Shown here: piece by piece, positions 1 through 60,109 of the stretch
Position numbering within the stretch: the stretch's first letter is position 1
Layout: each line of letters starts with the position of its first letter
Source: a virus
Direction: 5' to 3' (one strand)
DNA: 60,109 bases
Virus record (IMG/VR): IMGVR_UViG_3300037961_003044
Coordinates: 658-60,766 of that record
Translations under genes and position numbers: made by a program
Notes under the pieces: generated by a model
What the model was told of the DNA's origin: nothing
The model's database searches: none
What the model saw: the letters and a program-made list of their open reading frames with translations, nothing else

Positions 1-150
1 ACAATTCCTCGATTGTTCCCACCAGTGCTGTCGGCGAAATACAGCGAACCATCGTTCCCTGTTCCCGTAAGAATTGTAATGCCGTTGTCGCCACTTTCAG
101 CACCTACAACTAGATTGTCGGCCTTACTGTTGTAACTACCCGGCGAGGCT
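1..150. repeat. Fiber repeat, left copy (pairs with 39514-39663)
   Basis: Compared by eye with 39514-39663, about 7 mismatches fall in the first 137 bases, including one run of 59 identical bases (positions 43-101). Similarity drops sharply after about base 137. Both copies are in the same orientation inside fiber genes, 39.5 kb apart. A second shared block (about 787-960 versus 39702-39870) is closer to 80% identical. Confidence 0.85.
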
Positions 151-1271
151 GTCCCGATGCCGACCGACCCGCCGTTGAAATAGCTGTTGCCGTTGGCTTG
201 GACGCTCACTTGAGCGCCCCCACCGGCTGTATAAAGAAGGAACGAACCGTGTCCCCCAGCATCCTCCAAATTCGACACAATACCCGAACTGGTGCGGGTG
301 ATCATCATCGAGCTGTTAGTAGTGCCAGTTATGTCGAGTTTTGAGCTGGCAGAGGTCGCTCCGATTGCCAGATCACCGTCACTAGTAAGCCTGATACGCT
401 CGCTGTCGTTCGTATAGAACAACATGTTGTTGCCCGTGTGGTAATACGATATGCGGCCTGGTGCGTTTGCCACACCGTCCATAAAATATAGGTGCCCTCC
501 CCCATCTGAATTAGTGGCTATAGTGATGCCCTGATGAGCGTCTGCCCCCGTTCCTACCACCAGCGCATTGGCATTACTGAAGTAGTCACCCGGCGAGGAA
601 TTCAATATGCCGACTCCCGTCGATTCGATTCTCATTCGCTCGGTGAACGAAGCACCAGTCGTGAAAATCAACCCATCGCTTGTGTCAACATTGATAGAGC
701 CGCGCACTGCGCTGGCGTCTTTGAGCTGGAGGTAGGCGCCGCCGCCCTTTTGAAGAATCAGATTGCCGCCAGTGTCGATGGTTGCGCGAGTGATGTTGTT
801 GGTCTTGAAATACAGGTTGTGATTGCTCAGAGGCCCAACGTATGCGCCTGTGTTGTCAGCCTGTAAATGATTGACACAACCACCTGTCGAAGTGGCGGCA
901 ATTCGCGCATTGGCAGCTGTCACATCCAGCTCATACGTGGGCGAGCCCCCTATTCCTACAAACCCAGTTGCACCGTCAATGAGCATCGACTGAGTGTCCA
1001 GCGCACTGGCTACACTCGTTCGGAACACGATGTCGCCACCGACATTGTAGGCATCGATGTAGTAGCTACCGTTCTCAGAGCGGAGAAAATTGCTGGCGTA
1101 GGTGGTTTTGTTGCCACCGAACTCCACGACCACATTCTCGTCAAAATTACCACCGAGCGTTGAGGCTGTAATTTTACGAGTGCCTGACGTTGCGCCATCG
1201 ATGGCAATGTAGTCGTCTGCGTTTGTAGTCGACGTCGTAGTCGAAATATCTTTGATGCGTGTGTTGGCCAT
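1..1271 (-). CDS. Tail fiber protein, module A (3' end beyond window)
   Basis: A partial frame of 423 codons, open to the left edge of the window. The start is an ATG at 1271, two codons after which reads T-R-I-K-D-I-S. The N-terminal segment D-D-Y-I-A-I-D-G-x-x-x-G-T-R-K is almost the same as in the second fiber at 38955-40358, and I take it as the virion attachment part. The rest is a chain of short, glycine- and serine-rich beta units of the form S-P-x-Y-E-L-D-V, N-L-Y-x-K-T-N-N and I-G-T-x-S-P-G, typical of trimeric phage fibers. The last 50 codons in the window are about 95% identical at DNA level to 39514-39663. It is last in the operon 2785-1. Role inferred: receptor-binding or collar fiber; receptor unknown. 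Confidence 0.75.
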   Translation of the reverse strand, partial: MANTRIKDISTTTSTTNADDYIAIDGATSGTRKITASTLGGNFDENVVVEFGGNKTTYASNFLRSENGSYYIDAYNVGGDIVFRTSVASALDTQSMLIDGATGFVGIGGSPTYELDVTAANARIAATSTGGCVNHLQADNTGAYVGPLSNHNLYFKTNNITRATIDTGGNLILQKGGGAYLQLKDASAVRGSINVDTSDGLIFTTGASFTERMRIESTGVGILNSSPGDYFSNANALVVGTGADAHQGITIATNSDGGGHLYFMDGVANAPGRISYYHTGNNMLFYTNDSERIRLTSDGDLAIGATSASSKLDITGTTNSSMMITRTSSGIVSNLEDAGGHGSFLLYTAGGGAQVSVQANGNSYFNGGSVGIGTASPGSYNSKADNLVVGAESGDNGITILTGTGNDGSLYFADSTGGNNRGI

Positions 1272-1276
1272 GGTGC

Positions 1277-1432
1277 TTAATTGTCGGAGTGATCAGCAAT
1301 TGTTAAGTAGTCCCCGTCTTCAGTCAGGAAATTGTCGTTGTCGCTTTCGATTAAAAAATATTCACTGACGACAACGTCACTGTTGGTTGTGGGTGCGAAC
1401 CCGAACCCTGTTCCTAGACCTGCATTGCTCAT
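1277..1432 (-). CDS. Small acidic protein before the fiber gene (51 aa)
   Basis: A 51-residue acidic protein starting M-S-N-A-G-L-G and ending A-D-H-S-D-N. The start overlaps the stop of the upstream 97-residue gene in an ATGA junction, and its own stop lies 5 bases before the fiber start, so it is translationally coupled. Module B has a 47-residue protein in the same place (40364-40507) with the same E-Y-[FL]-[LV] and repeated acidic pattern. That conserved position is the best evidence it is real. Function unknown; perhaps a structural or assembly partner of the fiber. Confidence 0.6.
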   Translation of the reverse strand: MSNAGLGTGFGFAPTTNSDVVVSEYFLIESDNDNFLTEDGDYLTIADHSDN

Positions 1433-1722
1433 GCGTCGTAGGCAGTAATCGCTCCAGTGCTAACCACAATCTGGGTCGCAGAACAGCAACGCCAGGTGCT
1501 ACCTGCTTGAAGAGATATGTTTGTTAAGGTGCCAGTCAGGTTGGGGCTAGTAACGCTGGTTAGAACGGTGCTGGTATGTGCAAAAATATAGCTGAAATTA
1601 CCGTTCAGGGTTCCTGCTCCACTCTGGTAGGTTCCTTTGCTGGACCCAAAATGACCGTCGTCTCCGACTCTGACTGTTCTATAAACGTCGTTATTATCGA
1701 CTCCTGTAATTAGTGATGGCAT
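1429..1722 (-). CDS. Small structural-type protein (97 aa)
   Basis: Rich in Thr, Ser, Val and Gly, and beta-prone. It ends V-S-T-G-A-I-T-A-Y-D-A; the module B protein at 40507-40824 sits in the same slot and ends T-S-G-S-I-V-A-Y-N-S-S-N. This looks like a pair of divergent homologues upstream of the fiber. A copy of the 13-bp site lies 8 bases upstream of its start (1731-1743). I do not recognise the family; a small virion or fiber-accessory protein is the likeliest role. Confidence 0.6.
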   Translation of the reverse strand: MPSLITGVDNNDVYRTVRVGDDGHFGSSKGTYQSGAGTLNGNFSYIFAHTSTVLTSVTSPNLTGTLTNISLQAGSTWRCCSATQIVVSTGAITAYDA

Positions 1723-1730
1723 GAGATGTA

Positions 1731-1743
1731 GGTGTTAGTCACC
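1731..1743 (-). promoter_or_regulatory. Stoperator-like site, exact GGTGACTAACACC
   Basis: Exact 13-bp match in the minus-sense direction, the direction of transcription. It lies between the stop of the 1753-2484 gene and the start at 1722. Confidence 0.6.
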
Positions 1744-1752
1744 TGGAGCAAA

Positions 1753-2484
1753 TTAATAAGTCGAAACTTGCAGCCTGGTGGTTTGCCCCTGTTGGGTGTG
1801 TAGTTTTAAAAGTTCGTGGTCCAGGGCCCCTCTTGCGTCCGACTCTGCTACCCTGGCCCTGTCGAGTTCCCCGTTGTGTCGCAGGTAGTCTGCGTAGGCA
1901 CCTCTGATAAGGTAGTCTGAGAATAAGTATGGAACGGAAACCAAAGACCAATAAGTTGGTTGGGTCTTTGGACTATTGTCTGCCCCTGAGGCTACGTCCT
2001 GGAGGGCTATATAAAAGTTGCCGTGACTGTTGTCATAGACATGGTCGCCTGTGACGTAGGCTTTGCTTTGGCTGTAAAGTTCACCAGCAAACTCTGGTGC
2101 CACTTTGCGAAATTGAATGTAGACCTGAGAGTTGCTGGATGAAATCTGAACTCCGTTTTCACTCAGGTAGTGAGACAGGCTCTGGACGTCTGTGTTTGCC
2201 TTGGGTGACTTGTTCCAGACTGCGAAGACCTCAGACATCTCGGTCTGACCTGCCTGGTCAAGTGCTATAAAGTTGCCTTCATCACCTCCGCTTTGGGTGA
2301 CGGTGCGTTGTTCAGTTACACAGACTTCAGGCCACTTGGCGGCCTCCCAACCAAACCTAATACGTCGACTGACCAAGTCTCTTATGAGTCGCCACTCGGT
2401 TGTGGGTAGCGTGTCATGGTCAATGCCTGCCAGGTTGCAAACCTGCTTGAGGACTGTTCTGTAGTTGAGTGGCCTATGAGCCAT
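1753..2484 (-). CDS. Probable head-tail adaptor or tail protein (243 aa)
   Basis: The start is taken at the ATG at 2484 (M-A-H-R-P-L), two codons inside a longer TTG-started frame; it overlaps the upstream stop by 11 bases. The N-terminus is helical and rich in Trp, Arg and Glu; the middle has aromatic patches such as Y-W-S-L-V-S-V-P-Y-L-F-S-D-Y and a Y-A-D-Y-L-R motif; the C-terminus is helical. This resembles the small tail-adaptor proteins of podoviruses, and its place between capsid and fiber genes fits. The assignment rests on context and size; no decisive motif. Confidence 0.5.
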   Translation of the reverse strand: MAHRPLNYRTVLKQVCNLAGIDHDTLPTTEWRLIRDLVSRRIRFGWEAAKWPEVCVTEQRTVTQSGGDEGNFIALDQAGQTEMSEVFAVWNKSPKANTDVQSLSHYLSENGVQISSSNSQVYIQFRKVAPEFAGELYSQSKAYVTGDHVYDNSHGNFYIALQDVASGADNSPKTQPTYWSLVSVPYLFSDYLIRGAYADYLRHNGELDRARVAESDARGALDHELLKLHTQQGQTTRLQVSTY

Positions 2485-2785
2485 AACCAACCTGAGTCTT
2501 TCCAGTGCCTCCGCTCTTCACACGCAGCTCGGGGTTGTTGCGAGCCATGTATTTTCTGAAGTCGGGGTCCTTCCAAATCTCTTTGCCCTCTCGCTTGGTC
2601 CACTCCTGGTAGACCTTGTTGTCCACTTCCATGACTGGTCGGCCCATTCCATTGATAGAACGACGGTCCTGGTTGTGTTTAGCAATCTCACGTTGTCGCT
2701 GAATGGCTTCAGCGTGACGCCGCTCATGGGAGTCGATGTGAGCTTGGGCGAGTTTGTCTCTAACTTCTTGTGTGATGTCTGACAT
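2474..2785 (-). CDS. Small charged protein after the capsid gene (103 aa)
   Basis: The frame runs further upstream, but the sensible start is the ATG at 2785 (M-S-D-I-T-Q-E-V-R); beyond it the frame reads through a hairpin region. Highly charged, with an H-E-R-R-H-A-E-A-I-Q-R-Q-R helix that could form a coiled coil, and it ends in Gly and Lys. Not recognised. It follows the capsid gene and precedes the adaptor-like gene, so a virion or assembly role is plausible. Confidence 0.55.
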   Translation of the reverse strand: MSDITQEVRDKLAQAHIDSHERRHAEAIQRQREIAKHNQDRRSINGMGRPVMEVDNKVYQEWTKREGKEIWKDPDFRKYMARNNPELRVKSGGTGKTQVGYGS

Positions 2786-2841
2786 AAATCTGTCCCCGTA
2801 AGGAGGGAGAGAGTTTCCCCTCTCCCCCCCAGGAGGTGTGT

Positions 2842-2854
2842 TGCGTGACCAGGT
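2842..2854 (+). promoter_or_regulatory. Degenerate stoperator-like site GGTGACCCACACC
   Basis: 11 of 13 match to the repeated site, here in plus sense. It sits inside a perfect inverted repeat CCAGGTG-N5-CACCTGG (2840-2858), in the leader between the capsid stop and the start at 2785. Confidence 0.4.
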
Positions 2855-2875
2855 GACCCACACCTGGAATTGTTC

Positions 2876-2895
2876 AGAGTTGTTGCAACAACTCT
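2876..2895. repeat. 20-bp perfect palindrome after the capsid stop
   Basis: The palindrome AGAGTTGTTGCAACAACTCT begins at the last base of the capsid stop codon. Its 14-bp core GTTGTTGCAACAAC occurs again at 16693-16706 and 19797-19810. A second hairpin (GGGAGAG...CTCTCCC, about 2805-2826) lies further along the same leader. Possible mRNA 3'-end structure or protein site. Confidence 0.45.
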
Positions 2896-3947
2896 TAGAG
2901 AGCAGGGCTGAACTGTCCGAGACCCTTAGGGTTGCGGACCTGAAGCGTTGCTCGGCCTTCAATCATGATGCGTTCGCCACCACCACGGTCTTCAAAAGTT
3001 TCGACCGTTGGCGATTTCTCCAACCGGACATCCACTTTGTCCATATCGAGCAAGTAGCCTCGGCCAGCTTCTTGGGCGAAGGTAACTCCTGGGCGATTTG
3101 CTCCGATGAAGTTGTCGGCAATGACCTCAACTTGACCAAAGTCACCTTCAAAGATGGTGGTCGTGTTGGTGATTTTGGTTCCGTCACCGTCGTAGTTCAG
3201 GTTGCGTTGGCTGTAACCAGCGGTTGCAATCGTGCGGGTGAAGTCAGTGAATGCTCGGCGAAGAGTTGCATCGCAGAACAGTTTGTAGTCACCAATCATT
3301 CCAGTGTTCGTCCAGATGGTCTGAAGCATGGTTTGAATGTCGGACTCAGTAAGGTCGGCGGTTGCGTCTCCGTTGATTTGACCGTCAGCAGGACGGAAGG
3401 CGGCGGGAACCTCGAAGCCAGAAGCCTGACCAGCCAGGGAACCGAAACCTGCCGTGTTGATTGTGCTATCGCCACGAACCCAAACACCCATTGCACGAAG
3501 CAAGTAAGGGTTGGTTCCGTCGTCTGTGTCGAACTCCTGGTCAGAGAGCATGGTTGTTTCCATGTCTCGGAGAAGTTCAACGCCTTTGACTGCAACTGCG
3601 TTTGCCTTTTCGTCGGCTACACCAGCGATGACAGAAACGTCACCAGCCAGACGTGAAATCATGGCTGCACGTCTGAAGGTCTGGAGGTAGTTGAACAGGA
3701 GGGCTCGGGAACCTGCTGGGTTCTCGTAGTCGCCACCACCGGTCTCGGTGATGTCCTTACCGTCAACAATTCCACCCAGGCTAGGAGATGCATAAGCGTC
3801 TACAGGCCAGTCCATGCGGGTGTTCTGAGGGGTGGTTCCCTTGTTCACAAGGGACATGAAAGGGGTCGCCTTCTCGTCAACCCGTGTCAACAGGTCGAGT
3901 AAGTCTTCACGTTTTGCGACCTGACTGCGTTCTAATAATGATGCCAT
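2895..3947 (-). CDS. Major capsid protein, module A (DUF5309-type)
   Basis: 350 residues, a normal length for an HK97-fold capsid protein. The N-terminal stretch R-E-D-L-L-D-L-L-T-R-V-D-E-K-A-T-P-F-M-S matches what I remember of the DUF5309 / SU10-like capsid family. Later come alternating beta and helical segments and a C-terminal G-R-A-T-L-Q-V-R-N-P-K-G region. It lies 12 bases after the scaffold gene, with a fair ribosome site (AAGGA) before ATG 3947. It shows no obvious similarity to the module B capsid candidate at 40874-42103, so the window encodes two different shells. Confidence 0.85.
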   Translation of the reverse strand: MASLLERSQVAKREDLLDLLTRVDEKATPFMSLVNKGTTPQNTRMDWPVDAYASPSLGGIVDGKDITETGGGDYENPAGSRALLFNYLQTFRRAAMISRLAGDVSVIAGVADEKANAVAVKGVELLRDMETTMLSDQEFDTDDGTNPYLLRAMGVWVRGDSTINTAGFGSLAGQASGFEVPAAFRPADGQINGDATADLTESDIQTMLQTIWTNTGMIGDYKLFCDATLRRAFTDFTRTIATAGYSQRNLNYDGDGTKITNTTTIFEGDFGQVEVIADNFIGANRPGVTFAQEAGRGYLLDMDKVDVRLEKSPTVETFEDRGGGERIMIEGRATLQVRNPKGLGQFSPAL

Positions 3948-3959
3948 ATCTAGTTGTCC

Positions 3960-4937
3960 TTAGTTGATAAATGCCGCTTTGATGAAGTCTCTAAGACCAT
4001 CCTTCGAGCCGGTTTTCATCACACGTTTCTTGGCACTGGCAATAGCTTCTTCCGATGCACTCAGGGTTGCCTTCTGTGCAGCAGGCTTCCCAGGTTGAGG
4101 CGTGGGGTCAGGTGTTGTGTTTGCTACTTTTGCCTTGTTGGCCTGTTCTTGCTCTACGTAGAAGCCAACTAAGGCTCTAGCAAGATACAGGTCCACTTCA
4201 GGCAGTTGCTTAATAGCAGGGTTCGCCTGCTTAACCTGATCGACCCATGCCCGTGCAGGGTTTTGAGGGTCCTTCAGCCATGGGTATTTTTCGGATGCGA
4301 ACTCAAAAGACCGGGTTTGCTCGAGAATCTGTTTCCTTCGCTTGGGTATGTCGCTCTCCCTGGAGAACTCAGCATTGATGCTAAGGTCTTCTAACCAGGC
4401 TTCGACATCGTCGGGCAGTTCTTGCCCAGTGCGATTCTTGATTTCTCCTTCTACCGATTCTGGGTCGCGCCGATAGCGTGAGAGGGCTTTCTTTGCCCAC
4501 CTTTCCGCTTCCAGGGCTTGGTCCTCAAGCCTCTCCAGGTCGTCAAAGCTTGACGCCTCCTGGATGAGGTCTGAAATGCCAGTTTGCGACTGCTCTGCTG
4601 GTTGGCGTTGCTGCTTTTGAAGCTCAAACTGTTTCTCACGCAGGTCTTCGATCTCACGTTGGAGTTCGTTCTTCTGCCATGTCAGTTTGTCAACACGCTT
4701 GCGCCAGGAGTAGTCGTTGTTCGTGTCAGAGTCCGTCTCTGCCTTTGGCTCTTCCGGTTGCGGCAATTCGCCTTCCGTAGCCTCGGGCACAGGTGGTGTT
4801 TCTGCGTTTTGTTCGGAGGGTTCAGAGTCGCCAAGGCTTTGCTTGATCGCCGCTCTTACTGCGTCCATTGCACCAGAATCAGGTAGGTCTTCCACTGTAG
4901 GCTGGTGTTCTACAGTCGTAGTTTTATCGTCGGACAT
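3960..4937 (-). CDS. Capsid scaffold-type protein, module A
   Basis: 325 residues from ATG 4937 (M-S-D-D-K-T-T-T); a TTG three codons upstream is less likely. Typical scaffold composition: a disordered acidic and Pro-rich N-terminus, a coiled-coil centre (K-N-E-L-Q-R-E-I-E-D-L-R-E-K-Q-F-E-L-Q-K), and a basic C-terminus ending K-A-A-F-I-N. Directly upstream of the capsid gene, as expected. It would organise capsid assembly and then leave the shell. Called by composition and position. Confidence 0.75.
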   Translation of the reverse strand: MSDDKTTTVEHQPTVEDLPDSGAMDAVRAAIKQSLGDSEPSEQNAETPPVPEATEGELPQPEEPKAETDSDTNNDYSWRKRVDKLTWQKNELQREIEDLREKQFELQKQQRQPAEQSQTGISDLIQEASSFDDLERLEDQALEAERWAKKALSRYRRDPESVEGEIKNRTGQELPDDVEAWLEDLSINAEFSRESDIPKRRKQILEQTRSFEFASEKYPWLKDPQNPARAWVDQVKQANPAIKQLPEVDLYLARALVGFYVEQEQANKAKVANTTPDPTPQPGKPAAQKATLSASEEAIASAKKRVMKTGSKDGLRDFIKAAFIN

Positions 4938-4998
4938 GCTGTTCAATCGGGTCGCAAGTTACCCTTCACACAGGTCTTGGTGGCGCCTGAGGGGCCAA

Positions 4999-5011
4999 GG
5001 TGTTAGTCACC
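4999..5011 (-). promoter_or_regulatory. Stoperator-like site, exact GGTGACTAACACC
   Basis: Exact match in the direction of transcription, 61 bases upstream of the scaffold ATG and just after the 5054-5311 gene. The leader beyond it has an imperfect inverted repeat (CTTGG...CCAAG). Confidence 0.6.
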
Positions 5012-5053
5012 TAAAGCGAAAAGTAAGAGAAACAGTTTTGGCGTCAAGGGGGT

Positions 5054-5311
5054 CTACTCAGTTTCTTTCGGTTTGTTAGCGTCCTTGAACAGGTTCTCAA
5101 AACCGAAATACATGTCCTGCATCATGGACAGACGCCCAGCCTGGTAGTGTCTTTGGCCGTCGTTGGCATCTGGGGCAGCAGTTGCCAGGGCTTCACCCTT
5201 CATTGATTCGTTGAGAATATAGAGCAGGCCCTGGCGAACAGGGTGGTCCTCGCTCATGGCAAATGCCTGCAACAACTCGGGCGGGTAGCCCTGGAATTCA
5301 TAATCATCCAT
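5054..5311 (-). CDS. Small protein between portal and scaffold (85 aa)
   Basis: Overlaps the portal stop by 8 bases, so coupled to it. Begins M-D-D-Y-E-F-Q-G-Y-P-P-E-L-L, with a helical Y-Q-A-G-R-L-S-M-M-Q-D-M-Y core and an acidic end. A small gene occupies the same slot in module B (43446-43658). Such small proteins between portal and scaffold are common in podoviruses, but I do not know the function. Confidence 0.6.
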   Translation of the reverse strand: MDDYEFQGYPPELLQAFAMSEDHPVRQGLLYILNESMKGEALATAAPDANDGQRHYQAGRLSMMQDMYFGFENLFKDANKPKETE

Positions 5312-7382
5312 TCGGGTTCACTCCTATTCGTCCGATCTGTTTGTTTTGCTGCTGCATCATAGACATATTCAAGTTCTGCGAGAACGACTGGACAAGTTGT
5401 TGGAACTGTTCGTCTCCCTGGAGCAGTTCCTGGTATTTAGGGTTGGAGGCAATGATTTGCTGCATGAACTGCAACTTGATGCCTGCGCTCGGGTCGTTCT
5501 CAACGAAGTTAGGTTGGTTACCCAAGGCCATCAGGGCTACCTGGTTGTTGACGTCGTCAAACATCTTCTTAGTAGCTTCAGCCTCTTCTGTGACCAGTTC
5601 TGTTGCCAGGGTTGGGTCGATAACTTGGAGCTTCTTCCTGATAAGCTTAGTCCTGTCGACGATGCCCATGGTGTCTTCTGGCAAGACAAATTGTGAGATG
5701 GCCTGAAGTTTTTTCTGCACAAACTCGTTGTCTAGTTCGCGAATGTCAAAGTGCAGGCTCAGGTTGTATTTATTAGGGTCTCGAGGGATGCCCATGTTGG
5801 TGCCTGTCACCTGGGCAAAACGTTCATCAGAGTCAAACTTCTGAGTGAGTTCCCACATTCTGCCGACCACTGAAGACATGTGACGCAACCAGCGATGCAC
5901 GTAGGCCTGCTGGTTGAGCTGGGTTTCTACGGGTGGTATGGCTGCGTTGGGCCGACCGAAATACCTGTCTGTCCGAACGGTAATATCGTTGATGAGCTGG
6001 AATGCCAGTTCAGAACCTCGACGAGGTGGTTCCATCCAGGAGATGTCGTTGGGCCTTTGCTCGGCCACCTGGACACCTGGGCCCACTTTAATTCTTTGAC
6101 CGTAGCGCAAGGGCACCTTGAGTGGTGGAAGTATCTCGAAGCTTGATCGGTCGGTCAGACTGTCAGACTGGACCTTGATTTCGTTCTGCCAGGTCTTAAC
6201 AATCTCAGCCACTCCCCTGCTTTCAATAGGGCTGCGACGGGTCTTCTCCCTAGTAAAACATTCAAACGGGTAAGTGTCGCCTGCTTCAGTTACCAGTCGG
6301 TGTTCACCAAAGACCTCCTCTCCTCGAGGGTCTCTCTCCAGGTAAGGAGAGAACACTGTCAGGTAGATGCCAGGCATACCACTGTCAGTGGTTCTTCGAG
6401 AATAGGCATGAACAACCTCTACCAGGTTGCTCTTGTCGTCCATGGTCTCGCTGGTGCCTACCACTGGGCTGACACCGTATTCAAACGTAGACGTGTTGTT
6501 GCCAGCAGTCTTCTTGATGGCTTCGCAGAAGTCTTTGTCCCACTCGCCAGAGGCTGCCTTTTCTTCTATCTCAGCGACCGTGTAAAAGTCCCTCCTGAAG
6601 ATGGCCCTGGCACGTTGCCAGTCGGTGGTTTCAGGCGGGAACAGGACTTCGTGGTAAGGACGGAGTGCAACAATAGATGGCTGGTTCTTAGTCATCTCGG
6701 GCACCTCAAAGGTGGTCTTACCAGTGTTTACAATCTCCCTGATGTGCTTGAGAGCCTTTGTCCTGGTCAGGCCTTTGTTGCCTGCGACCAGGAGGTCAGC
6801 CAGGTATTCCTGCTCGTTTTGCAGGGCAGCGGTTAGAGCGTCAACACTCGGCGGGTTGTCGGCCCCTAAGTAGCCGGTGAGTGTTTGGAGGTTTATTTCG
6901 CGGGGCACCTGGGCATAACAGCGCTCCCAGGTTACATGAAGGACGCTCCAACCATATTGCGCCGCATATTCGGAGTGCAGTTCCAGCTCTTCTTCCCAGT
7001 CTGGCTGCATCAAATTCGATAGCATCCAACGTAGGTATAACCCCACTGCACCAGATGCCTTGCAATCACTTGACTCAACCCCATCAACATTCAGGGCTGC
7101 CTTGGAAACGGCAGAAGTCCCCAGGTTTACCATGAAGTTGCAGACCTCGTCTGCTAATCGAATGCGGGTGTCACTGGCACCTTCCCAGGGAAATGGTTGT
7201 TGGCCAATGTCGGCTGCGTGTTTCTTACCGTCACTGCTTTGACCGTTCCAGAATGCAAACCGTGTGTTGTCTGCTTCCTGGACACGGTTGGTCATTCGCC
7301 GGTCGGTGTGAGCCCTACGGAAGTCTCTCCGCAATTCAGAAATGTTTGGTTCGGTTGTCGAAACCAATTTGTCGGTGTTCAT
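5304..7382 (-). CDS. Portal protein, module A
   Basis: 692 residues, in the range of large podovirus portals. The N-terminus is charged and helical; F-A-F-W-N-G-Q, the aromatic stretch F-P-W-E-G-A-S-D-T-R-I and a V-L-H-V-T-W-E-R segment resemble portal proteins of T7-like and related phages. A long helical, Gln- and Met-rich C-terminus (M-M-Q-Q-Q-N-K-Q) fits a barrel or tunnel-lining end. It directly follows the large terminase (stop and start touch at 7382), the usual head-gene order. It would form the dodecameric DNA channel and the docking site for terminase and tail. Confidence 0.85.
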   Translation of the reverse strand: MNTDKLVSTTEPNISELRRDFRRAHTDRRMTNRVQEADNTRFAFWNGQSSDGKKHAADIGQQPFPWEGASDTRIRLADEVCNFMVNLGTSAVSKAALNVDGVESSDCKASGAVGLYLRWMLSNLMQPDWEEELELHSEYAAQYGWSVLHVTWERCYAQVPREINLQTLTGYLGADNPPSVDALTAALQNEQEYLADLLVAGNKGLTRTKALKHIREIVNTGKTTFEVPEMTKNQPSIVALRPYHEVLFPPETTDWQRARAIFRRDFYTVAEIEEKAASGEWDKDFCEAIKKTAGNNTSTFEYGVSPVVGTSETMDDKSNLVEVVHAYSRRTTDSGMPGIYLTVFSPYLERDPRGEEVFGEHRLVTEAGDTYPFECFTREKTRRSPIESRGVAEIVKTWQNEIKVQSDSLTDRSSFEILPPLKVPLRYGQRIKVGPGVQVAEQRPNDISWMEPPRRGSELAFQLINDITVRTDRYFGRPNAAIPPVETQLNQQAYVHRWLRHMSSVVGRMWELTQKFDSDERFAQVTGTNMGIPRDPNKYNLSLHFDIRELDNEFVQKKLQAISQFVLPEDTMGIVDRTKLIRKKLQVIDPTLATELVTEEAEATKKMFDDVNNQVALMALGNQPNFVENDPSAGIKLQFMQQIIASNPKYQELLQGDEQFQQLVQSFSQNLNMSMMQQQNKQIGRIGVNPNG

Positions 7383-9049: not shown

Positions 9050-9055
9050 TACGTC

Positions 9056-9334
9056 TTAAAACCGGCTCAACTGTCTGGGCCTTCCCTTGCAATACATCCT
9101 CTTGCCCCCAGGTTCGCACCAGACAGGCACCTGGAGCCCTCTTTGGAACCACCGGGCATCACTTACATGGACCAGCCCCAAGTCGGTCTCTATGAGCCTG
9201 CTGTTGAGCGGGTGACCAATGACCTTGCCCACTTTACTCTCCCTGCCTGCCTTCCAGCGGAGGTCAGGTGACTCCAACATGGTTCGTCGTTTGCCCGGTT
9301 TGCCTCGGGTGCGCTTCTTAGGTTGGTCTTCCAT
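9056..9334 (-). CDS. Small basic protein (92 aa)
   Basis: Very basic N-terminus (Q-P-K-K-R-T-R-G-K-P-G-K-R-R) followed by a small beta-rich part with H-V-S-D-A-R-W-F-Q-R and G-G-K-R-M-Y. Six bases before the terminase start. The composition suggests nucleic-acid binding; family not recognised. An inverted repeat that may be an operator lies just upstream (9347-9379). Confidence 0.5.
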   Translation of the reverse strand: MEDQPKKRTRGKPGKRRTMLESPDLRWKAGRESKVGKVIGHPLNSRLIETDLGLVHVSDARWFQRGLQVPVWCEPGGKRMYCKGRPRQLSRF

Positions 9335-9346
9335 GGTCAGTCTGTT

Positions 9347-9379
9347 TTTGACATTTAGCGTCCCCTCTTAAATGTCAAA
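9347..9379. promoter_or_regulatory. Inverted repeat TTTGACATTT / AAATGTCAAA, candidate operator
   Basis: Perfect 10-bp arms at 9347-9356 and 9370-9379, centred 13 bases apart, upstream of the 9056-9334 gene. An overlapping hairpin CCCCTCT (9362-9368) with AGAGGGG (9381-9387), followed on the plus strand by CCCTTTT, could act as a plus-strand terminator. The sequence TTTGACATTTAA also occurs at the promoter at 18807. Confidence 0.45.
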
Positions 9380-9477
9380 GAGAGGGGCCCTTTTGTCATT
9401 TGCTGTGTCTGGGGAGATGCGTTTCAATATCGCTACCCCTGGCAAGTTAGTGACCCCCCCGCCCCCTTGTTTGGTGC

Positions 9478-9490: not shown

Positions 9491-9526
9491 CTTTCGCACA
9501 ATACTTCTTATGTATAATTAAGTGGT

Positions 9527-50112: not shown

Positions 50113-50114
50113 GA

Positions 50115-53100: not shown

Positions 53101-54713
53101 GCTTCGATATTCGATACGACCTCCTGCTCAGAAGCTTCGAGTGCAGCCTCCGTAGCTTCCTGACGTTTGGTGTCAACCTGTTGTCGTTTGGTATCCAGCT
53201 CCTGCTGCTTGGACTCCAAAGCTGCGGTAGCCTCGGTAGTAGGTTCAGCTTCAGCTTGAGTTTGTAGTCGCTGGACCTCAGTGGTTAGGGCATCAAGTTC
53301 CAAGTCCAGGTCTTGGGCTTCTTGGATAAGAGCGTTGACTTTGTCTGGTGGGACAGGAGTTGTCTCCTCTAATAGCTCAGATCGTCGGGCCTCTACTTGT
53401 TGGCGTTTAGAATCTAGTTCCTTCTGTTTGGTTTCCAGCGCAAGCGTAGCTTCAGCAGAAGGCTCTGTTTCAGCTTGGGATTGAAGTTGGCTAACTTCAG
53501 ATTCCAGACCCTCAACTTCCAAATCAAGATCTTGAGCCTCTTGGATAGCTTCGCTAGGTGAAGTCTCTCTGGTAGCAGATTCCAGTAACTCAGCTCGCCT
53601 AGCCTCGACCTGCTGTTGTCGGGCCTCAAGTTGCTCTTGCGGAGTTTGGGGAGCAGTAGGTAACTCAGGTGCTGTAGCGAGGATTTCCTCCTCGGTTCGT
53701 CCACCTGTAATAACGTCGGCTGGCTCTGTCGCAACAGGAACCGGACCCGCCTCTTGGGCTGCTGCATCGGTTTGTGGAGTTGTGGTTTCCTCAGCCTGCG
53801 GTTGAACCCTGCCTCGGTATCGACCCCCAAAAGCACTTGCCAAGAGAGACAACAATGCACCAGTGGTCCCTCCAACAACAGTTGCCTCTTCAAAACCCTC
53901 AAACGTACCTCTATCGGGGTCGTAACCTAGCTGTTGAGCAGTTACGTTTTGTAAAGCAGACTGCAAATTCTCCTGGGCAATTTCTTCTGCCCCGCTAATT
54001 GCGGCATCGAGTAGCTTTTTCTTAAATCCTACAGCTTGGCTCCCTGGAATCTTGTTTAGGATTTTGTTTAACGGAACTATCTCCGTCAAACCTACACCCG
54101 CACCCATAAGAGCTGCCCGTAAAGCAGTGTCTTCACTTGCACCAGAGCGTTTGGCGTCTTCGTAAAACTCGTTAGAAGTGGCTGCGGAACCTAACAGCGC
54201 AATGCTAGTGCCTGTTACCCCAGCAGTTTTACCTAAAGCACCCCCGGCCAAAAATCCAGCCGCCGATCCTAGACCTTGTCCTATTTTAGCTGTCCAAGTT
54301 TCCCGAGCTTGCTCATCGATAGGGAATTTCTCCTCGGCAGCTTCTCTTAAAAGTTCTCCGAGCTGGTAAGTTACAAACTCTTCAGGAGGAGTGTCTTTGT
54401 CACGAAGTTTGTCTAGCCCAGATGCACCCAAAGCTATTGACTTCGGAACCGAGGCAAACACATCGAGCGCACCTTTTATGCCAGATTTTAAAGCTACCTC
54501 TCCAAATTCAGCTACTTCGGCTACGGCAGTTGCACCAAGGGCTGGGTCCATTTGACCCCTAAGAACATTCTTATAATCTTCCCTGAACTCAGGATCTTCC
54601 TGTAAGAATTCTTTTTGAGTGGATCCAATAAACTCAATTAAATCCTCATCAGACTCTTGCGAGAAAGCGGGTTCTACTTCTCTGAAAAAAGCAAGGACAT
54701 CTTTAGTAGCCAT
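50115..54713 (-). CDS. Giant internal/ejection protein, module B (1532 aa)
   Basis: N-terminal acidic helical part (F-S-Q-E-S-D-E-D-L-I-E-F), a glycine/alanine zipper region (G-S-A-A-G-F-L-A-G-G-A-L-G, about 150-300), a Pro/Glu linker, then coiled-coil repeats of about 72 residues (Q-Q-V-E-A-R-R-[AS]-E-L-L recurs, about 365-515). A long helical C-terminal half has no catalytic motif I recognise. Equivalent in place to the 2448-residue protein of module A but without the metallopeptidase, methyltransferase or ASCH parts. It probably forms the channel for DNA ejection. Confidence 0.65.
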   Translation of the reverse strand: MATKDVLAFFREVEPAFSQESDEDLIEFIGSTQKEFLQEDPEFREDYKNVLRGQMDPALGATAVAEVAEFGEVALKSGIKGALDVFASVPKSIALGASGLDKLRDKDTPPEEFVTYQLGELLREAAEEKFPIDEQARETWTAKIGQGLGSAAGFLAGGALGKTAGVTGTSIALLGSAATSNEFYEDAKRSGASEDTALRAALMGAGVGLTEIVPLNKILNKIPGSQAVGFKKKLLDAAISGAEEIAQENLQSALQNVTAQQLGYDPDRGTFEGFEEATVVGGTTGALLSLLASAFGGRYRGRVQPQAEETTTPQTDAAAQEAGPVPVATEPADVITGGRTEEEILATAPELPTAPQTPQEQLEARQQQVEARRAELLESATRETSPSEAIQEAQDLDLEVEGLESEVSQLQSQAETEPSAEATLALETKQKELDSKRQQVEARRSELLEETTPVPPDKVNALIQEAQDLDLELDALTTEVQRLQTQAEAEPTTEATAALESKQQELDTKRQQVDTKRQEATEAALEASEQEVVSNIEAEQQSPFEVDPETDPVAERAGFATAGIVDPSLRPFLNYKDGKIEFNIEGLFNLGDKVREKLFGGKATDAANRVSNFLRTQASGLKNNVATLVNGFETTLSNVFKDAQGKVLPSDQRDIAPIDALLRDKNAIKNLDLDSFAKRLFAHRGPTYVVTDADKQLAKQTVEFVDQARKMIDFLTQKMVDSGLVAEKNLPTFEQGIGEYLTRSYKVFNKAYDWNWNTIPKSIKDAAVKDIRDSYNKKHPASPMTEQQAMETALELTTDRDKAFAWSIGLTAVNGVPVRLLYKRKQLSKPMRELLGEIKDPVTNTLITLDKQINLLMGFQMQNQLAELLVESGMASHEVDKSKGFTQQVFDNNFALGIQSKRKYPSLRPLYTTEAYAKELQSFFIRHNSSEQLGFVKRAIKRLAGITKYNLVVLNPAAYSTQYIAAVYNEARQGRLLWPSAAIAERGVSLPDQVKINAKAAGLLLKNRKLRKQGTPPPSLESQEEFVNTKASEFLKDPVKLIEDNSLLMEDLAYRYGALNDVVNLRIIEELLVNQRENDLLKDLTAKRMWAEMGKRLDKKTLEAFGPMKGLKEISKALTKIYGGGDQAGKMNAFLVETLGEAASNPDATMDEVMSIAAKKTVATTPTTATIAPSIKEASAFSLLNAFISWQVELVRNTYNQAAIASLEMSSSNPVEKSRGTRRAVTGALGIASAVVAGRTILEALMGAIGSNDDEYTSEAGDWIIANLLPEWDQDQSVAVVKFDKDGFAYTPLSYVMPDALLGIPFKAAMRGESLSDSIKNSLIALQRTVGGRHPLLQAFQILLDNYDPARGVKVANEELPAWDQAKARALAAGYVVAPGIAKTLGVKLPRILSDGKKPFGREYTVQEELYSYMGVRTYGYEWEGALRGQMQNFERRLREAKRIVPKRDIDELIAAGKPEEAKALQDKEDARIQAIAKEYSDLYVGALKHVPGLTRKQLDSWQKNITATVGGGRLSRDLTTPAAQAANAAGY
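53150..53640. repeat. Tandem coding repeats of about 216 bp
   Basis: Two and a half imperfect copies inside the giant ejection gene; the Q-Q-V-E-A-R-R type segment falls near 53600, 53395 and 53180. Encodes the coiled-coil repeats. Confidence 0.6.
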
Positions 54714-54714
54714 C

Positions 54715-55674
54715 TCAAGGATTCATTCTTTGTTTTCGGTTTCGATATCGATCCAACAAGGATAAACTGCTTACTAAAGGAGCAGGTAATGATAAGTTTC
54801 TTTGATCCGCTATCTCACGAAGCCATGTCAAATTAGACTCAACAGCTTGACGCTCTTCTTCGTCCGTTACGGTTTTTGATTTCTCAACCAATCCCAAATA
54901 TCTACGTTGAATCTCATCGTCATCCATCCCTCTAAAAGATTCGGTGGCGTCATCCTTTTTGTTACTGAGGAATACTTGACCTACGTTAGGAATAGTTAGA
55001 TTCACGCCAGTAGCCTGCGGTTGGGCTAAAAGTTCTGCACCCAATTCAAGCCTAGCTTTAGACTCACGCATGCCAGCTAGGGTTTCTAGCTCCTGCTTTG
55101 CCGTGAAATAGTCCTTGGGTACGTTTTCTTCGGTGAAACTATAAGTGGCCATCAGTTCAGCCTTAATGTCGCGATACTCAGCAATTCGTTCTGCTTGTTT
55201 CCCAGCCAGAAGCTCGTCTTTGAGTTTCTTAACCTGCTGCTGACCGCTTAGGCTCATCCCTTCAGGTGCCCGATATGATCGAACGGCTGCTATATCGCCA
55301 TCGTTCATCAAAGACTGTAGTTCCTCGCCAGCCGTCCGATAACCGTTGTTATCGTTGATCTCTTGCTCAAGCTTTGCGCTCAACTCAGCATTGTCGAGAA
55401 TCTGGTTTTGAACTTTAAGATTGTACTCTTTTTCCCGAATGCTGTTTTGCAACGCATAGTTAGCCGTTTGCATCCGCAACTGGTCTTGACGCAGTCGAGT
55501 CTCGGCTGGCGTTGCTGCCCTAGCTATGGCAGACATAACAGTCGCAAACCTACCGGGAACATCGACATCTTCACCACGTTGAGCGCGTTCCATCAACGTG
55601 CGTCGTCGCTGGCTGGCTTCCATACCAGTGCCGATGCTTTCAAAGAAACTTAAAAATGGATTGTCTTCTGCCAT
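54715..55674 (-). CDS. Internal virion protein, module B (319 aa)
   Basis: Helical and charged, N-terminus N-P-F-L-S-F-F-E-S-I-G-T-G, with long coiled-coil runs. One base separates it from the giant ejection gene. Counterpart by position of 29589-30911. Confidence 0.6.
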   Translation of the reverse strand: MAEDNPFLSFFESIGTGMEASQRRRTLMERAQRGEDVDVPGRFATVMSAIARAATPAETRLRQDQLRMQTANYALQNSIREKEYNLKVQNQILDNAELSAKLEQEINDNNGYRTAGEELQSLMNDGDIAAVRSYRAPEGMSLSGQQQVKKLKDELLAGKQAERIAEYRDIKAELMATYSFTEENVPKDYFTAKQELETLAGMRESKARLELGAELLAQPQATGVNLTIPNVGQVFLSNKKDDATESFRGMDDDEIQRRYLGLVEKSKTVTDEEERQAVESNLTWLREIADQRNLSLPAPLVSSLSLLDRYRNRKQRMNP

Positions 55675-55678
55675 AACT

Positions 55679-56512
55679 TTATCCTCCCATCATTGATGAC
55701 CCTATATTGCCCAAGAACCTTTTAAAAAATCCAGGTTGTGCAGTTCCACCGCCAGATCCATAGCCTAAACTAGGCCCCGCGTAACCTCTAGGTAGACTAT
55801 ACTGAGGTTGATACGGAGGTGTACCTCCATCGAACATAGATCCTCCCATCTGAGATCCCATTTGGGCACCTGCTGGACCACCTATGGCAGCTCCTATAGC
55901 AGAACCTGCTACCTTTGCACCTACCGAAGCTAGGCCCTTAACCACAGGATCAGGAGCTGCTTTGGCTTGAGCTGCTGCCATATCGCGCCGTAACTTAGCG
56001 TCCCGCTCGGACCGAACGAAGTCAATACGCTGCCCTGGGGTCAAAAACATGTTTGCAACAGACTGCTGCTGAGGCATCAACGATCGCATCGAAGCCAACA
56101 TCTGAGCAGACTGATTCATGGCAACGTCGGCACGTTGCAAGCTAGTCAGACCTAGGTTACGTAGTTCGCCGAACGTAGCAGCTTGACTTCCTCCATACCC
56201 ACCCTGTCGCGCCTGTGCCACCGAACGGTCTATGATAAATCGCTGAACGTCCTCTGGTAACTCACCCCGCAAGCCAGCTTGGATGTTCTCCGTCTGTAGC
56301 TTGATATTTTCCCGAGTACCCGGTGCAATCTGTTCCAACACCGCCAACGCGGTTTCAGCATCGGCTTCGGCTATCGATCGAGCTACGCGCTTGCCCTCTG
56401 GCATGCGCTGCTGAATCGACCTAAACGCTTTGTCTATCTCAGCATCAGGATCGATCTCCTTGAACTTAGGTACCTTTACCTTTGAACCGAATATGTCTTT
56501 TAAGAATCCCAT
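55679..56512 (-). CDS. Internal or tail-channel protein, module B (277 aa)
   Basis: Begins M-G-F-L-K-D-I-F-G-S-K-V; Ala/Gln-rich helices, then G-S-A-I-G-A-A-I-G-G-P-A-G-A-Q-M-G, a glycine-zipper, and a Gly/Pro/Tyr-rich tail. Counterpart of 30913-31992 by place and by the Ala/Gly stretch, but without its C-terminal W-V-A-R-E-V-Y-G domain. Confidence 0.6.
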   Translation of the reverse strand: MGFLKDIFGSKVKVPKFKEIDPDAEIDKAFRSIQQRMPEGKRVARSIAEADAETALAVLEQIAPGTRENIKLQTENIQAGLRGELPEDVQRFIIDRSVAQARQGGYGGSQAATFGELRNLGLTSLQRADVAMNQSAQMLASMRSLMPQQQSVANMFLTPGQRIDFVRSERDAKLRRDMAAAQAKAAPDPVVKGLASVGAKVAGSAIGAAIGGPAGAQMGSQMGGSMFDGGTPPYQPQYSLPRGYAGPSLGYGSGGGTAQPGFFKRFLGNIGSSMMGG

Positions 56513-56516
56513 TGTC

Positions 56517-57524
56517 TTAGATTATATGTGGCATGCTACCCGCACCCCAAGTTTCAGCCTCGACCCGCAACGGCTCGACGTTTGATGTTCCTTCATAATG
56601 CAACAACTCTACTTCCAACAGTCGCACAGCTTCCTGCATGTACTGTGCAGCCTCGCCTCGGTTCTGTTGTTCCTCAAGTTGAATAGCCTTAGCTGCGTTC
56701 TTGATCGCACCGTACTCCTCTAGGAGCAACCAGTCGGTGTCTTGTCGCACGTCGATGTGGTCGAGCTTGACGACCGCCCGAACCACTCGCTTATTGGTAA
56801 GTGGGTCTCCGCTACCGCACACATACTGCGGTGCGTCTCCGAGTCCTGGGATAACACTCCGTCGATAGCTTGGGAGGGTTTCATCTGCTTCGTAATACCC
56901 GATCGGCACGACGACTGCGTCCTTAGTAACTTTTGACAAATAAACCGGGCCGTTCGTAACTGGTTTCTGTACTCCAGTAATCGCAGTAAAAATACTGCTC
57001 GACCCTGTAACCGTGGTGCTAATGTCGATGTACTCTCCGTCAACCCATGTGGATCCATCCTGTGTTCTGATCCAGTTCCCGTTTTCATCGTATCCCTGTA
57101 CTAGTAGTTTTGCCCCTGCCGCTTCGTCCACGCCGCTGTAAACCTGCAACGTAGACTGAAAATCATTCATGTCATCGTACACACAAGACCGACCACGATC
57201 CAACAACTGCAACTCGCTGGAGTTGCCAGTCGTGCGGATGCCGTACCCAGTCTGCAAGTACTCGAACCATCCGTTCCGAAGTGTGATCGGATGTTCGTTT
57301 ACCGCTAGTGCCTCAATCGAAGCAACCTGCCTTGGCCATGTCAGGCATCCGTCCGAGCCTACACAGATCTGGTAGGTCTGAAACGTGCCCCAGTACAGAC
57401 CTTGCTTGACTAGACGCGAGTGCGCCTCGTTCACAAGTTGGGTGAACTTGTTGTCACTCGGACATAGCCCCAGAAAATCAGGTAGCCCTTTGGTCTTGAG
57501 TTCGCCTAGAGTCAGTCTGCTCAT
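56517..57524 (-). CDS. Probable head-tail adaptor-type protein, module B (335 aa)
   Basis: N-terminal helical part with L-V-N-E-A-H-S-R-L-V-K-Q-G-L-Y-W-G-T, then beta-rich central domain (Y-I-D-I-S-T-T-V-T-G-S-S), and a helical C-terminus (E-E-Y-G-A-I-K-N-A-A-K-A). This organisation is common in podovirus adaptor or tail-tubular proteins. It may correspond to 1753-2484 of module A, though there it lies after the capsid gene. Confidence 0.5.
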   Translation of the reverse strand: MSRLTLGELKTKGLPDFLGLCPSDNKFTQLVNEAHSRLVKQGLYWGTFQTYQICVGSDGCLTWPRQVASIEALAVNEHPITLRNGWFEYLQTGYGIRTTGNSSELQLLDRGRSCVYDDMNDFQSTLQVYSGVDEAAGAKLLVQGYDENGNWIRTQDGSTWVDGEYIDISTTVTGSSSIFTAITGVQKPVTNGPVYLSKVTKDAVVVPIGYYEADETLPSYRRSVIPGLGDAPQYVCGSGDPLTNKRVVRAVVKLDHIDVRQDTDWLLLEEYGAIKNAAKAIQLEEQQNRGEAAQYMQEAVRLLEVELLHYEGTSNVEPLRVEAETWGAGSMPHII

Positions 57525-58222
57525 GATGCTGTGTAGTAAACTCTACCCGTACGTTTCAGGAAGAACACTCCGTAGTAAGGGTTCAACACGTTAAACGGAC
57601 TCGCAGTGTGTTTAGTAGGATCGGACTGAGCCATGTTCTGAACTCGGTCGTTGCCCAACGATCCGTCGGAATTAGTAAAGTTACCTTCACCCGGATGGAG
57701 CGATCCACCGCCGTTGGCATTGGCGTGATAGTACACATCGTGGTTGTGGATCGGCAGGTTTGATTCTTCCAACGTAGATGTAGTAGATCCTCCCGTGGAT
57801 TCCACGGCGTAAGTGTCGCCAGCACCTATTGGGAACTTGTTCTGGATAGGTTCAAAGATTTCCCAGAAAGGTCCGCTTGTGGCAGATACGGTGCCTGCTG
57901 TGCCTCCGTCCAGAGTGTTCACATCAGAACTCGACCCGTAAAACGGAATCAGTCGCTTGTCCCCAGCAGGAACCGGATGTGGCCATCTCCAAGATCCGTC
58001 GTTGAAAATCCACTGACGAACCGGGTTTCCATTAGCAGTTGTCTGTATCCAAAGCTTGTCTAGATCTTCAGATCCAGGTGCTGTTTCACTGATGATGTAT
58101 TTTAGACTGCCCTCTGCAAAATAGGCATAGCTGTTCCTAGCCATGTCCTCGAATAATGATTGCCACGTCGAGTAACAATCAGAAGGAAGAGTGCCGGGGA
58201 TGATCGGTAAATTAGTACTCAT
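57521..58222 (-). CDS. Tail collar-domain fiber protein (233 aa)
   Basis: The C-terminal half has the tail-collar pattern N-L-P-I-H-N-H-D-V-Y-Y-H and ends N-V-L-N-P-Y-Y-G-V-F-F-L-K-R-T-G-R, as in short tail fibers of many phages. The N-terminus reads I-P-G-T-L-P-S-D-C-Y-S-T-W. Overlaps both neighbours by 4 bases. Likely a short fiber or receptor-binding protein of module B; module A has different fibers in this place. Confidence 0.7.
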   Translation of the reverse strand: MSTNLPIIPGTLPSDCYSTWQSLFEDMARNSYAYFAEGSLKYIISETAPGSEDLDKLWIQTTANGNPVRQWIFNDGSWRWPHPVPAGDKRLIPFYGSSSDVNTLDGGTAGTVSATSGPFWEIFEPIQNKFPIGAGDTYAVESTGGSTTSTLEESNLPIHNHDVYYHANANGGGSLHPGEGNFTNSDGSLGNDRVQNMAQSDPTKHTASPFNVLNPYYGVFFLKRTGRVYYTAS

Positions 58223-60039
58223 ATGCTAGGGTAGTCATTCAATGGACAAGTCGTGTCCGTAGTCTGTGTTGCAGTAGTCGGAGGACATGCTTCGTATATG
58301 TTCTCGTTCTTTTGTTCAGCGAAAAATCTAATCAAGTCCACTTTGGCGTACCCTACGCCTTTCAGACGAAACTGAAAAGCGTAACCTTCGTTTACGGGTT
58401 TCTTGGGGTCAATATCCTCGCAAGTGTTAGGAGGATAAGCCACACTCCTACGAGGACGATAGGAAGGACGATACTCATAAAGCCCGAGACAATCAGTATC
58501 ACCAGAGCATTGCTTAATCTTCGCATCTTCCTGCCATGTCTTCCATAAGTTCCAGTTAGGCGAGTCATCGGGTCTTACGTACAGTGTCAAATCAACCTGA
58601 CCCTTGACCTCTCGCATCCATGTCTCAAATCTGTCCATGCGTTTCTTCTCGAACGGACTGTCGAAGGACAACTGTCTGGTTTCAAAGAACCATTCGATGC
58701 CTTGGTGTGCTGTGCCAGTGTAGTCTTGCGTAGCTGATGGATCGATTTCCCACAGCTCGATTTTGTCAGAGTCGCTCAACGCAATTATAAAACATCGCTC
58801 CACACCATCGAACTCACCGTTCACCAAGTGCAGTACGTTCAAGCCTGTCCATAGACCGTCGTACGCAAGCGGCGATTTGACTCGTATGCCGCTGACTGGG
58901 TTAAAATCCAAACTGACAATGCCTTGATGAACCACGCCTCTGGTCTTACGTCGGCCTATGCAGGTATGCAACAGTCTGTTGCCGAATGTAACGCCGCTCG
59001 TAAATTGCAACAACCTAGGATCGTCGTAGTCCAAGGCTCGATCGACCTCAGCACTGATAGGTGTTATGCCGGGATCATTGAAATCACGACGCGCCAAGAT
59101 CAAAGACCGTATCCCGTCCGATGATCTGAAGTACAAGTCACCGTTCACATTGGTGACTGTGTACGGACCAACTGCACCAGACGGTGCCACCAGTCGTTGG
59201 ACTGGGTAGGTCAGTTGTTTCCAAACTGTTCGGTCTGTAGGGACCGTAGTCGCAAACGCACTATTACGTGTGAACACAATCAAGTCGCCTTCGCCCACAC
59301 CTGTGTCCAAGGCCGACATGACTGACAACGCAGTGATCGGACCCGCATTGGTCGGTGTTGCAAACGAACCACCTTCGTTCAGGTAATCGTTCTCAGTAAA
59401 CTTCAGAACTGCGTCGATCCTGTTGATGTACGCATTGCCGCTGGATGAACCAACCAAGTCACCCGCTGCATACTGAGATCCACTAGCAACCCACAGTCGT
59501 CCGTTGCCATACGCACCTACAGACGACGAGGGTACCTCGGATCCGTCAGTAGCTGCTCGTCGGGACTCAGCTCGGTTGTATATGATCGGCGCACTCTGGT
59601 CGTCTTGGATGACCATCCAACGCTCGGCTTGCTCAAACGTGACCAAGTCCTGCTTGCTGCTGTTCAAGTCTCGCTGGCTGCTGTCTACTGGAGATATGGG
59701 AGTCACATCCCTGACAGAAAAACTACTGTCAGGTTCAATCGAAAAAATCCTGCCGCCTATTGACAGCAGGAGTTCACCTTGCCCAGAAGATCTGCGATAG
59801 TACGCAGCTCCCTGAAACTTAGCGTTAGCGTTTTGAAAATTAGCCTCAACGTCAGTTGCAAAGTCCAGTGTGCGTTTCACAAACCCAGGTCGTGGACCGA
59901 TGGATCCACCACGCATCGTACAGTTCACAGCCCATGCAGTTTGGTTGGGCTGCAACAAGCGAGGGTGAAGGTTGGAATCACAACCTCCCTCAAACGAGAC
60001 CTGCGCGTCTCCTTGTACTCTGGGTTTGGTTTGGGCCAT
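58219..60039 (-). CDS. Large tail protein, propeller-like, module B (606 aa)
   Basis: N-terminus G-G-C-D-S-N-L-H-P-R-L-L-Q-P-N-Q-T-A-W-A-V-N-C-T then R-P-G-F, parallel to the module A protein at 34320-36542. Trp/Asp-rich beta blades in the centre (Y-F-R-S-S-D-G-I-R-S-L) and a C-terminal beta domain with four Cys. Tail hub or nozzle by analogy. Confidence 0.6.
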   Translation of the reverse strand: MAQTKPRVQGDAQVSFEGGCDSNLHPRLLQPNQTAWAVNCTMRGGSIGPRPGFVKRTLDFATDVEANFQNANAKFQGAAYYRRSSGQGELLLSIGGRIFSIEPDSSFSVRDVTPISPVDSSQRDLNSSKQDLVTFEQAERWMVIQDDQSAPIIYNRAESRRAATDGSEVPSSSVGAYGNGRLWVASGSQYAAGDLVGSSSGNAYINRIDAVLKFTENDYLNEGGSFATPTNAGPITALSVMSALDTGVGEGDLIVFTRNSAFATTVPTDRTVWKQLTYPVQRLVAPSGAVGPYTVTNVNGDLYFRSSDGIRSLILARRDFNDPGITPISAEVDRALDYDDPRLLQFTSGVTFGNRLLHTCIGRRKTRGVVHQGIVSLDFNPVSGIRVKSPLAYDGLWTGLNVLHLVNGEFDGVERCFIIALSDSDKIELWEIDPSATQDYTGTAHQGIEWFFETRQLSFDSPFEKKRMDRFETWMREVKGQVDLTLYVRPDDSPNWNLWKTWQEDAKIKQCSGDTDCLGLYEYRPSYRPRRSVAYPPNTCEDIDPKKPVNEGYAFQFRLKGVGYAKVDLIRFFAEQKNENIYEACPPTTATQTTDTTCPLNDYPSI

Positions 60040-60109
60040 TATACGTCACTCAGACCAATTTGGTTCCATTGGTAGGCTGAGGTAGTAGAGTTGTACCAAG
60101 CTCTTAGCG
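60039..60109 (-). CDS. C-terminal fragment of the next gene upstream
   Basis: An open frame from the right edge ends in TAA overlapping the ATG of the 606-residue gene (TAATG). The visible residues, R-A-W-Y-N-S-T-T-S-A-Y-Q-W-N-Q-I-G and a short end, look like a beta-rich tail protein. Only 23 codons visible. Confidence 0.4.
   Translation of the reverse strand, partial: LRAWYNSTTSAYQWNQIGLSDV

Follow-up and report, generated by a model that had tools for sequence, protein, structure and literature searches.

The linear virus record IMGVR_UViG_3300037961_003044 (60,766 bases) brings together genes of two tailed phages, here termed A and B, and is very probably an assembly chimera of two separate phages in which, judging from the sequence, the assembly ran on from A into B via a tail-fibre cassette common to both. 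The window, i.e. the whole stretch of 60,109 nucleotides analysed here, comprises bases 658-60766 of this record; coordinates refer to the window unless the record is named. By its gene content and ends, phage A is most likely an integrase-encoding tailed phage whose genome of about 39.5 kb forms a closed circle. Phage B appears from its genes to be a different genome, present in the record in incomplete form. At face value the window would suggest a two-capsid phage replicon. It probably does not reflect a virus with two kinds of shell and is better read as a caution about assembly: tail-fibre cassettes common to unrelated phages can join their genomes in assembly.

The record starts with a piece of 647 bases, followed by exactly 10 N (record 648-657), which we take to be an assembler's placeholder, and then by the window, which contains no ambiguous bases and no inverted repeats of at least 30 bases. 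The gap immediately precedes window base 1 and hence lies at the left fibre repeat. The initial annotation had read this left boundary as the edge of a repeat; it is actually a gap inside a longer record. A run of 10 N is also present in another record, G009. The features of the fibre locus and of the left edge are as follows.

1-164, no strand: left fibre repeat copy, directly after the 10-N gap of the parent record
39514-39677, no strand: right fibre repeat copy, 94% identical to 1-164
774-959, no strand: second, weaker fibre repeat, 78% identical to 39690-39875
39690-39875, no strand: partner of 774-959, as found with BLAST (Basic Local Alignment Search Tool)
38884-38962, no strand: self-closing point of A, 79 bases identical to record 1-79, covering the end of the fibre gene, intergenic sequence and the start of the next gene
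39427-39509, no strand: copy of the end of the small left piece, 83 bases identical to record 565-647
3-1271, minus strand: N-terminal part of the fibre gene of A, its reading frame continuing through the 10 N to record 1-647
38084-40506, minus strand: fibre cassette at the A/B junction, comprising 38240-38587, the fibre-adjacent gene 38596-38904, the fibre gene 38955-40358 and flanking intergenic sequence; the join lies somewhere inside

The directly repeated fibre segments reported initially were borne out at slightly greater length, with a spacing of 39,513 between the two copies. They are accompanied by weaker direct repeats at 774-875/39690-39791 (81%) and 892-959/39808-39875 (85%), which BLAST merges into one pair, and all of them sit inside the two fibre genes, 3-1271 (open leftward) and 38955-40358. 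The geometry described for them, with a complete unit of 39.5 kb flanked by the fibre repeats, likewise stands. When the 657 bases preceding the window are included the left copy becomes longer: record 481-821 aligns with window 39343-39677 at 93% identity, as does record 1-87 with window 38884-38970 at 97%, while the sequence between these two segments diverges. The longest exact run (83 bases) ends at the end of the small left piece and the second (79 bases) begins at the start of the record; the next-longest in this comparison of the left piece with the fibre locus are 59 and 53 bases. The small left piece, record 1-647, in which the fibre of A is reached only across the 10 N, is thus an alternative fibre C-terminus with both edges identical to the right fibre locus. 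The join lies in a region with sequence common to both sides, which includes the two exact runs.

Since window 38884-38962 repeats record 1-79, A can close as a circle, which would consist of record 1-647, the 10 N and the window up to about 38.9 kb, 39,540 nucleotides in all. Four A-type relatives hold one genome each (G006, 39,759 bp; G013, 39,773 bp; G011, 41,988 bp; G010, 44,230 bp). G010 and G011 have 127-base identical ends, and the portal gene of G011 is split across its ends. G006 is collinear with window 1239-38243, with some interruptions, and has no B part; it ends in the fibre-adjacent gene, and its fibre starts near base 1,179. G013 opens and closes within one fibre gene with compatible frames, and G019, which shares 99.8% identity with window 436-10438, likewise breaks off inside the fibre. 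Ends at or in the fibre locus are therefore found in G006, G013 and G019, and the fibre is internal in G010, G011 and G012.

The genes for head formation and packaging on which the distinction between A and B is based are the following.

2895-3947, minus strand: major capsid protein of A, SU10_MCP (PF17236; Pfam, 7.6e-42), PHROG 1328
3960-4946, minus strand: probable scaffold of A, by position; weak Pfam match below cut-off (E 0.012)
5304-7382, minus strand: portal of A; profile match to a PDB entry 'Probable portal protein' (E 4.4e-4 over 164 positions)
7382-9049, minus strand: large terminase of A; weak Pfam match to Terminase_6N below cut-off (E 0.0016), and a relative in G015
40507-40857, minus strand: small gene of B between probable capsid and fibre, 61% identical to its counterpart in G001
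40874-42103, minus strand: probable capsid of B, by position only; 84% identical to G001, no family match
42313-43440, minus strand: probable scaffold of B, by position only
45580-47841, minus strand: probable portal of B, by position only
48283-50112, minus strand: large terminase of B, PHROG 2 (1.8e-21)

Both large terminases predicted initially were thus recovered: that of A through its weak Pfam match together with the G015 relative (46-49% identity), which itself matches PHROG 2 at 1.3e-12, and that of B through its own PHROG match, which marks the B module as that of a tailed phage. An SU10-type major capsid protein is present in the A module. SU10-like phages have a prolate podovirus particle. 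The claim of paired portals, scaffolds and capsids was upheld for the capsid and portal of A, with a probable scaffold, but not for the set of B, where the assignments follow from position. Library scans gave no useful family match for the portal, scaffold or capsid of B, PDB profile searches with its portal and capsid yielded nothing useful, and AlphaFold models of the two proteins were unusable (mean predicted local distance difference test scores of 40 and 31, respectively). The library searches performed did not reveal the propeller tail proteins proposed for both modules.

Terminase A has no detectable homology to terminase B (hhalign probability 0.6), nor does portal A to the probable portal of B (hhalign probability 0.4). 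Since neither pair shows a detectable relationship, they point to two lineages, and a duplication of one head module was rejected as an explanation. In searches of phage records, terminase A found four matches, the best being 31% identical to Phage C75C1, and terminase B found 19 records, which matched 25-77% of its length at 21-31% identity. A genome search with the single terminase A protein gave no match; with an alignment of terminase A it gave two contigs of metagenome-assembled genomes, titled Pedosphaera (40%) and Verrucomicrobia (37%), which as sequence matches are too weak for naming a host.

Of two complete phage modules, as initially described, that of A holds up, but that of B does not: the B part amounts to about 20 kb and stops at the end of the record, compared with 47,383 bp for its B-type relative G001. 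The order of genes 40507-60039 is the same as that of their matches in G001, with the alignment running through the ends of G001. These ends lie in one large virion-protein gene that is in frame across them via a VTEAAP repeat. The 48-nucleotide identical ends of G001 were rejected as evidence for circularity; they represent an 18-base in-frame tandem repeat (VTEAAP), and circularity therefore rests on the gene that is in frame across the ends. Ten further G001 proteins were scanned and gave matches including DNA polymerase (PHROG 17, 1e-84), helicase, exonuclease and integrase, functions not matched by any of the 13 scanned proteins of the B part. The fibre of G001 (621 amino acids) directly follows the homologue of 40507-40857, which implies that the right-hand fibre of the window occupies the fibre slot of B.

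Each of the two parts of the record represents a genome type that is found elsewhere without the other. In a gene-by-record table of 16 records, which as displayed omits G019, genes 40507-60039 are confined to B-type records, and those at 1429-37567 are found in the A-type records. Exceptions are partial matches of G001 to the giant protein (39%) and the integrase (25%) of A, and five A genes that are matched at 27-40% in G018, a third phage type. Among 34 records including this one, a B marker (56517-57524) was found in seven and the A portal in 23, both together only in the record studied here. The same held in an earlier set of 20 records, with terminase B in seven (one of them, G018, being a weak match of 26%) and terminase A in 14. 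Many of the relatives searched are fragments, and absence from any single one says little.

Four-letter word usage separates the two parts as well. Correlations were 0.92-0.95 among four pieces of A, 0.77 between two pieces of B and 0.38-0.47 in all eight A-B pairs, compared with a minimum of 0.54 (G018) among 42 within-record control pairs from eight other records. When left-out stretches were scored, all 21 A stretches were A-like and all 13 B genes B-like; two giant genes and some small genes had been excluded from this scoring. The fibre cassette is compositionally mixed, with the A fibre at 1-1271 being neutral (-4) and 38240-38954 leaning to B. The last gene with clear A word usage (37574-38083, minus strand) has homologues in A-type records and, at 48% identity and downstream of the fibre, in G001. 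The change in word usage begins at about 38.2-38.5 kb, left of the fibre, and the join may therefore lie left of the repeat, within 38084-40506. The initial annotation had placed it at the fibre repeat; the fibre region is retained, but the shift in composition ahead of the repeat speaks against that exact position.

At its N-terminus, the B-slot fibre shares 71% identity with that of the A-type G006 (over 110 residues) and 39% with that of the B-type G001 (over residues 1-73); for the A fibre, the N-terminus is 64% identical to G006 over 39 residues. A homologue of 38596-38904 follows the fibre match in all seven further loci (L109-L115), one of which, L113, also shows 33-35% matches to three A genes; no B core gene was matched in these loci within the stretches examined. 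Taken together, the N-terminal identities and the context of 38596-38904 point to a putative mobile host-recognition cassette. Its gene 38240-38587 had no match in the 16 displayed records. The C-terminus of the other fibre (record 1-647) has 31 distant relatives of at most 36-49% identity over most of it, and one match of 64% over 22 residues. No independent contig crossing the A/B junction was found in searches with the fibre protein and with 31- and 28-base words: the fibre protein retrieved two relatives, the third phage type G018 and one match of 23 residues; no contig contained a 31-base word from the 83-nucleotide run; and the single contig (13 kb) with a 28-base word from the 79-nucleotide run matched, of the window proteins compared, only the fibres and 38596-38904.

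Exchange of fibre cassettes is of a known kind. The distantly related Alteromonas phages A5, V22 and P24, which differ in morphology, share a tail fibre and a chaperone (PMC10579305). As described there, and as here, a fibre and a small gene downstream of it are common to otherwise unrelated phages. The Alteromonas case concerns isolated phages and the protein level, whereas the present one concerns 79-83 identical bases and uncultivated phages. The small gene of the Alteromonas phages is given as a chaperone, for which 38596-38904 would be a candidate, and each of the two fibre alleles here may belong to either phage. Fibre DNA with identical stretches in phages with unrelated head genes suggests, at the sequence level, a recent exchange of host-recognition functions and overlapping hosts.

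We propose that A and B, presumably present in one sample, would have carried related fibre cassettes with short identical stretches of DNA, and that the assembly was faced with two fibre N-termini and two C-termini linked by these stretches. The assembler should have closed A at the 79-base overlap; instead it may have run through the shared fibre into B, with the other fibre C-terminus being joined to the far end of A across the gap. We favour a chimera because of the N gap at the left repeat, the exact self-overlap of A, the A-type relatives with one genome each, the separate B-type genome, the finding of both markers in no other searched record and the change in word usage. The gap, the overlaps, the one-phage relatives and the change in composition are direct observations, from which we infer the assembler, not recombination, as the cause. 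Several points weigh against this interpretation. No N gap marks the join on the right. At 79 and 83 nucleotides, the exact overlaps fall short of the 127-nucleotide ends of G010 and G011, and an assembler restricted to words of the latter length, if one was used here, would not be expected to collapse them. The place of the join is narrowed only to somewhere inside 38084-40506, and a real fibre crossover would leave nearly the same sequence. Composition is not decisive: high correlations are also seen between distinct phages (0.82 for G013 and G001, about 0.75 for A and G001) and do not prove one origin, one within-record control (G018) falls to 0.54, and 148 bases on the B side (40359-40506) score A-like. 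Finally, most of the searched relatives are fragments. As to precedents, a viral metagenome benchmark reports chimeric contigs, usually making up less than 5% of contigs of at least 10 kb (Roux et al. 2017, PMC5610896). Such contigs resemble the present record in that one contig holds parts of two distinct genomes; the criterion given there (95% of the length to one input genome at 90% identity) presupposes known source genomes.

The initial annotation had offered a cointegrate or an assembly chimera, and it is the latter that the gap, overlaps, relatives, markers and composition support. In a real cointegrate, a single homologous crossover within the fibre gene would have united two circular phage genomes, leaving hybrid fibres at both junctions. 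The fibre repeat flanking both sides of one 39.5-kb unit and the open frames of both fibres would fit such an event, for which the exonuclease VIII-like gene of A could have served. We nevertheless regard it as highly improbable, given that both markers occur together in just one of 34 records, this one, that the N gap is located exactly at the left junction and that A and B differ in word usage; that A is complete while only about 20 kb of B is present counts as weak evidence in the case of a linear fragment. We attach even less credence to an A+B cointegrate joined in nature by recombination of the fibre genes; such a replicon would combine two head and packaging systems and might either be encapsidated in two kinds of virion or resolve to fibre-swapped hybrids. 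Evidence specifically for a two-capsid replicon or a cointegrate was not found. Least probable of all, in our judgement, is an arrangement of A and B as tandem prophages within a host chromosome. Integrase matches exist in both A and the B relative G001, but A is unbroken through its integrase region, where it is collinear with G006 (17783-18768 and 19994-21935), the A/B join lies in the fibre, no transfer RNA gene was found in the window, and there was no host gene among 40 window proteins scanned against PHROG, which represent part of the open reading frames (no attachment-site search was made).

Compatible with an assembly chimera is the refinement that B itself is a true recombinant carrying an A-type fibre cassette, with the artificial join located further left or inside the cassette. 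We consider the chances of this to be evenly balanced: the B-slot fibre N-terminus is nearer to the A-type G006 than to the B-type G001 and the cassette is of mixed composition, but recombination in B does not by itself explain the record, and the searches yielded no complete B genome for this strain.

The remaining annotated genes of the two phages are listed below.

11960-13327, minus strand: DnaB-like helicase of A (PHROG scan)
14116-14952, minus strand: exonuclease VIII-like protein of A (PHROG scan)
17823-18776, plus strand: integrase of A (match at 1.4e-8)
22238-29584, minus strand: giant protein of A, 2448 amino acids, part of which matches DUF7178
34320-36542, minus strand: protein of A with an amidase-like match (PHROG 5107)
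50115-54713, minus strand: virion protein of B, 1532 amino acids (PHROG 22602, 8.7e-9)
54715-60039, minus strand: further genes of B, with PHROG virion structural or tail matches for 58219-60039 and 57521-58222, followed by the end of the record

An O-like initiator match also lies within A. Its 2448-residue giant protein may be a virion protein that is ejected. Near the integrase, a radical SAM domain protein is encoded at 20027-20950 (PHROG 1802, 2.4e-7). Elsewhere in A, 36539-37567 encodes a glycosyltransferase (PHROG 2170, 2.1e-29). In the B part, gene 43540-44964 weakly matches glycoside hydrolase family 130 (7.5e-6, narrowly missing the Pfam cut-off) and adjoins a methyltransferase-like gene at 44925-45548.

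A second two-phage record was encountered in G017 (IMGVR_UViG_3300010970_000150, 88,287 bp; loci L100-L104), which contains two A-family terminases and two portals, one of each per 44-kb half, an exact direct repeat of 2,311 bases at a spacing of 44,423, and 55-base identical ends. It resembles the record described here in having two terminases, two portals and a direct repeat between its halves. Unlike in the latter, the two phage genomes that make up the halves of G017 in tandem are related to each other and have the exact 2,311-base repeat in common.

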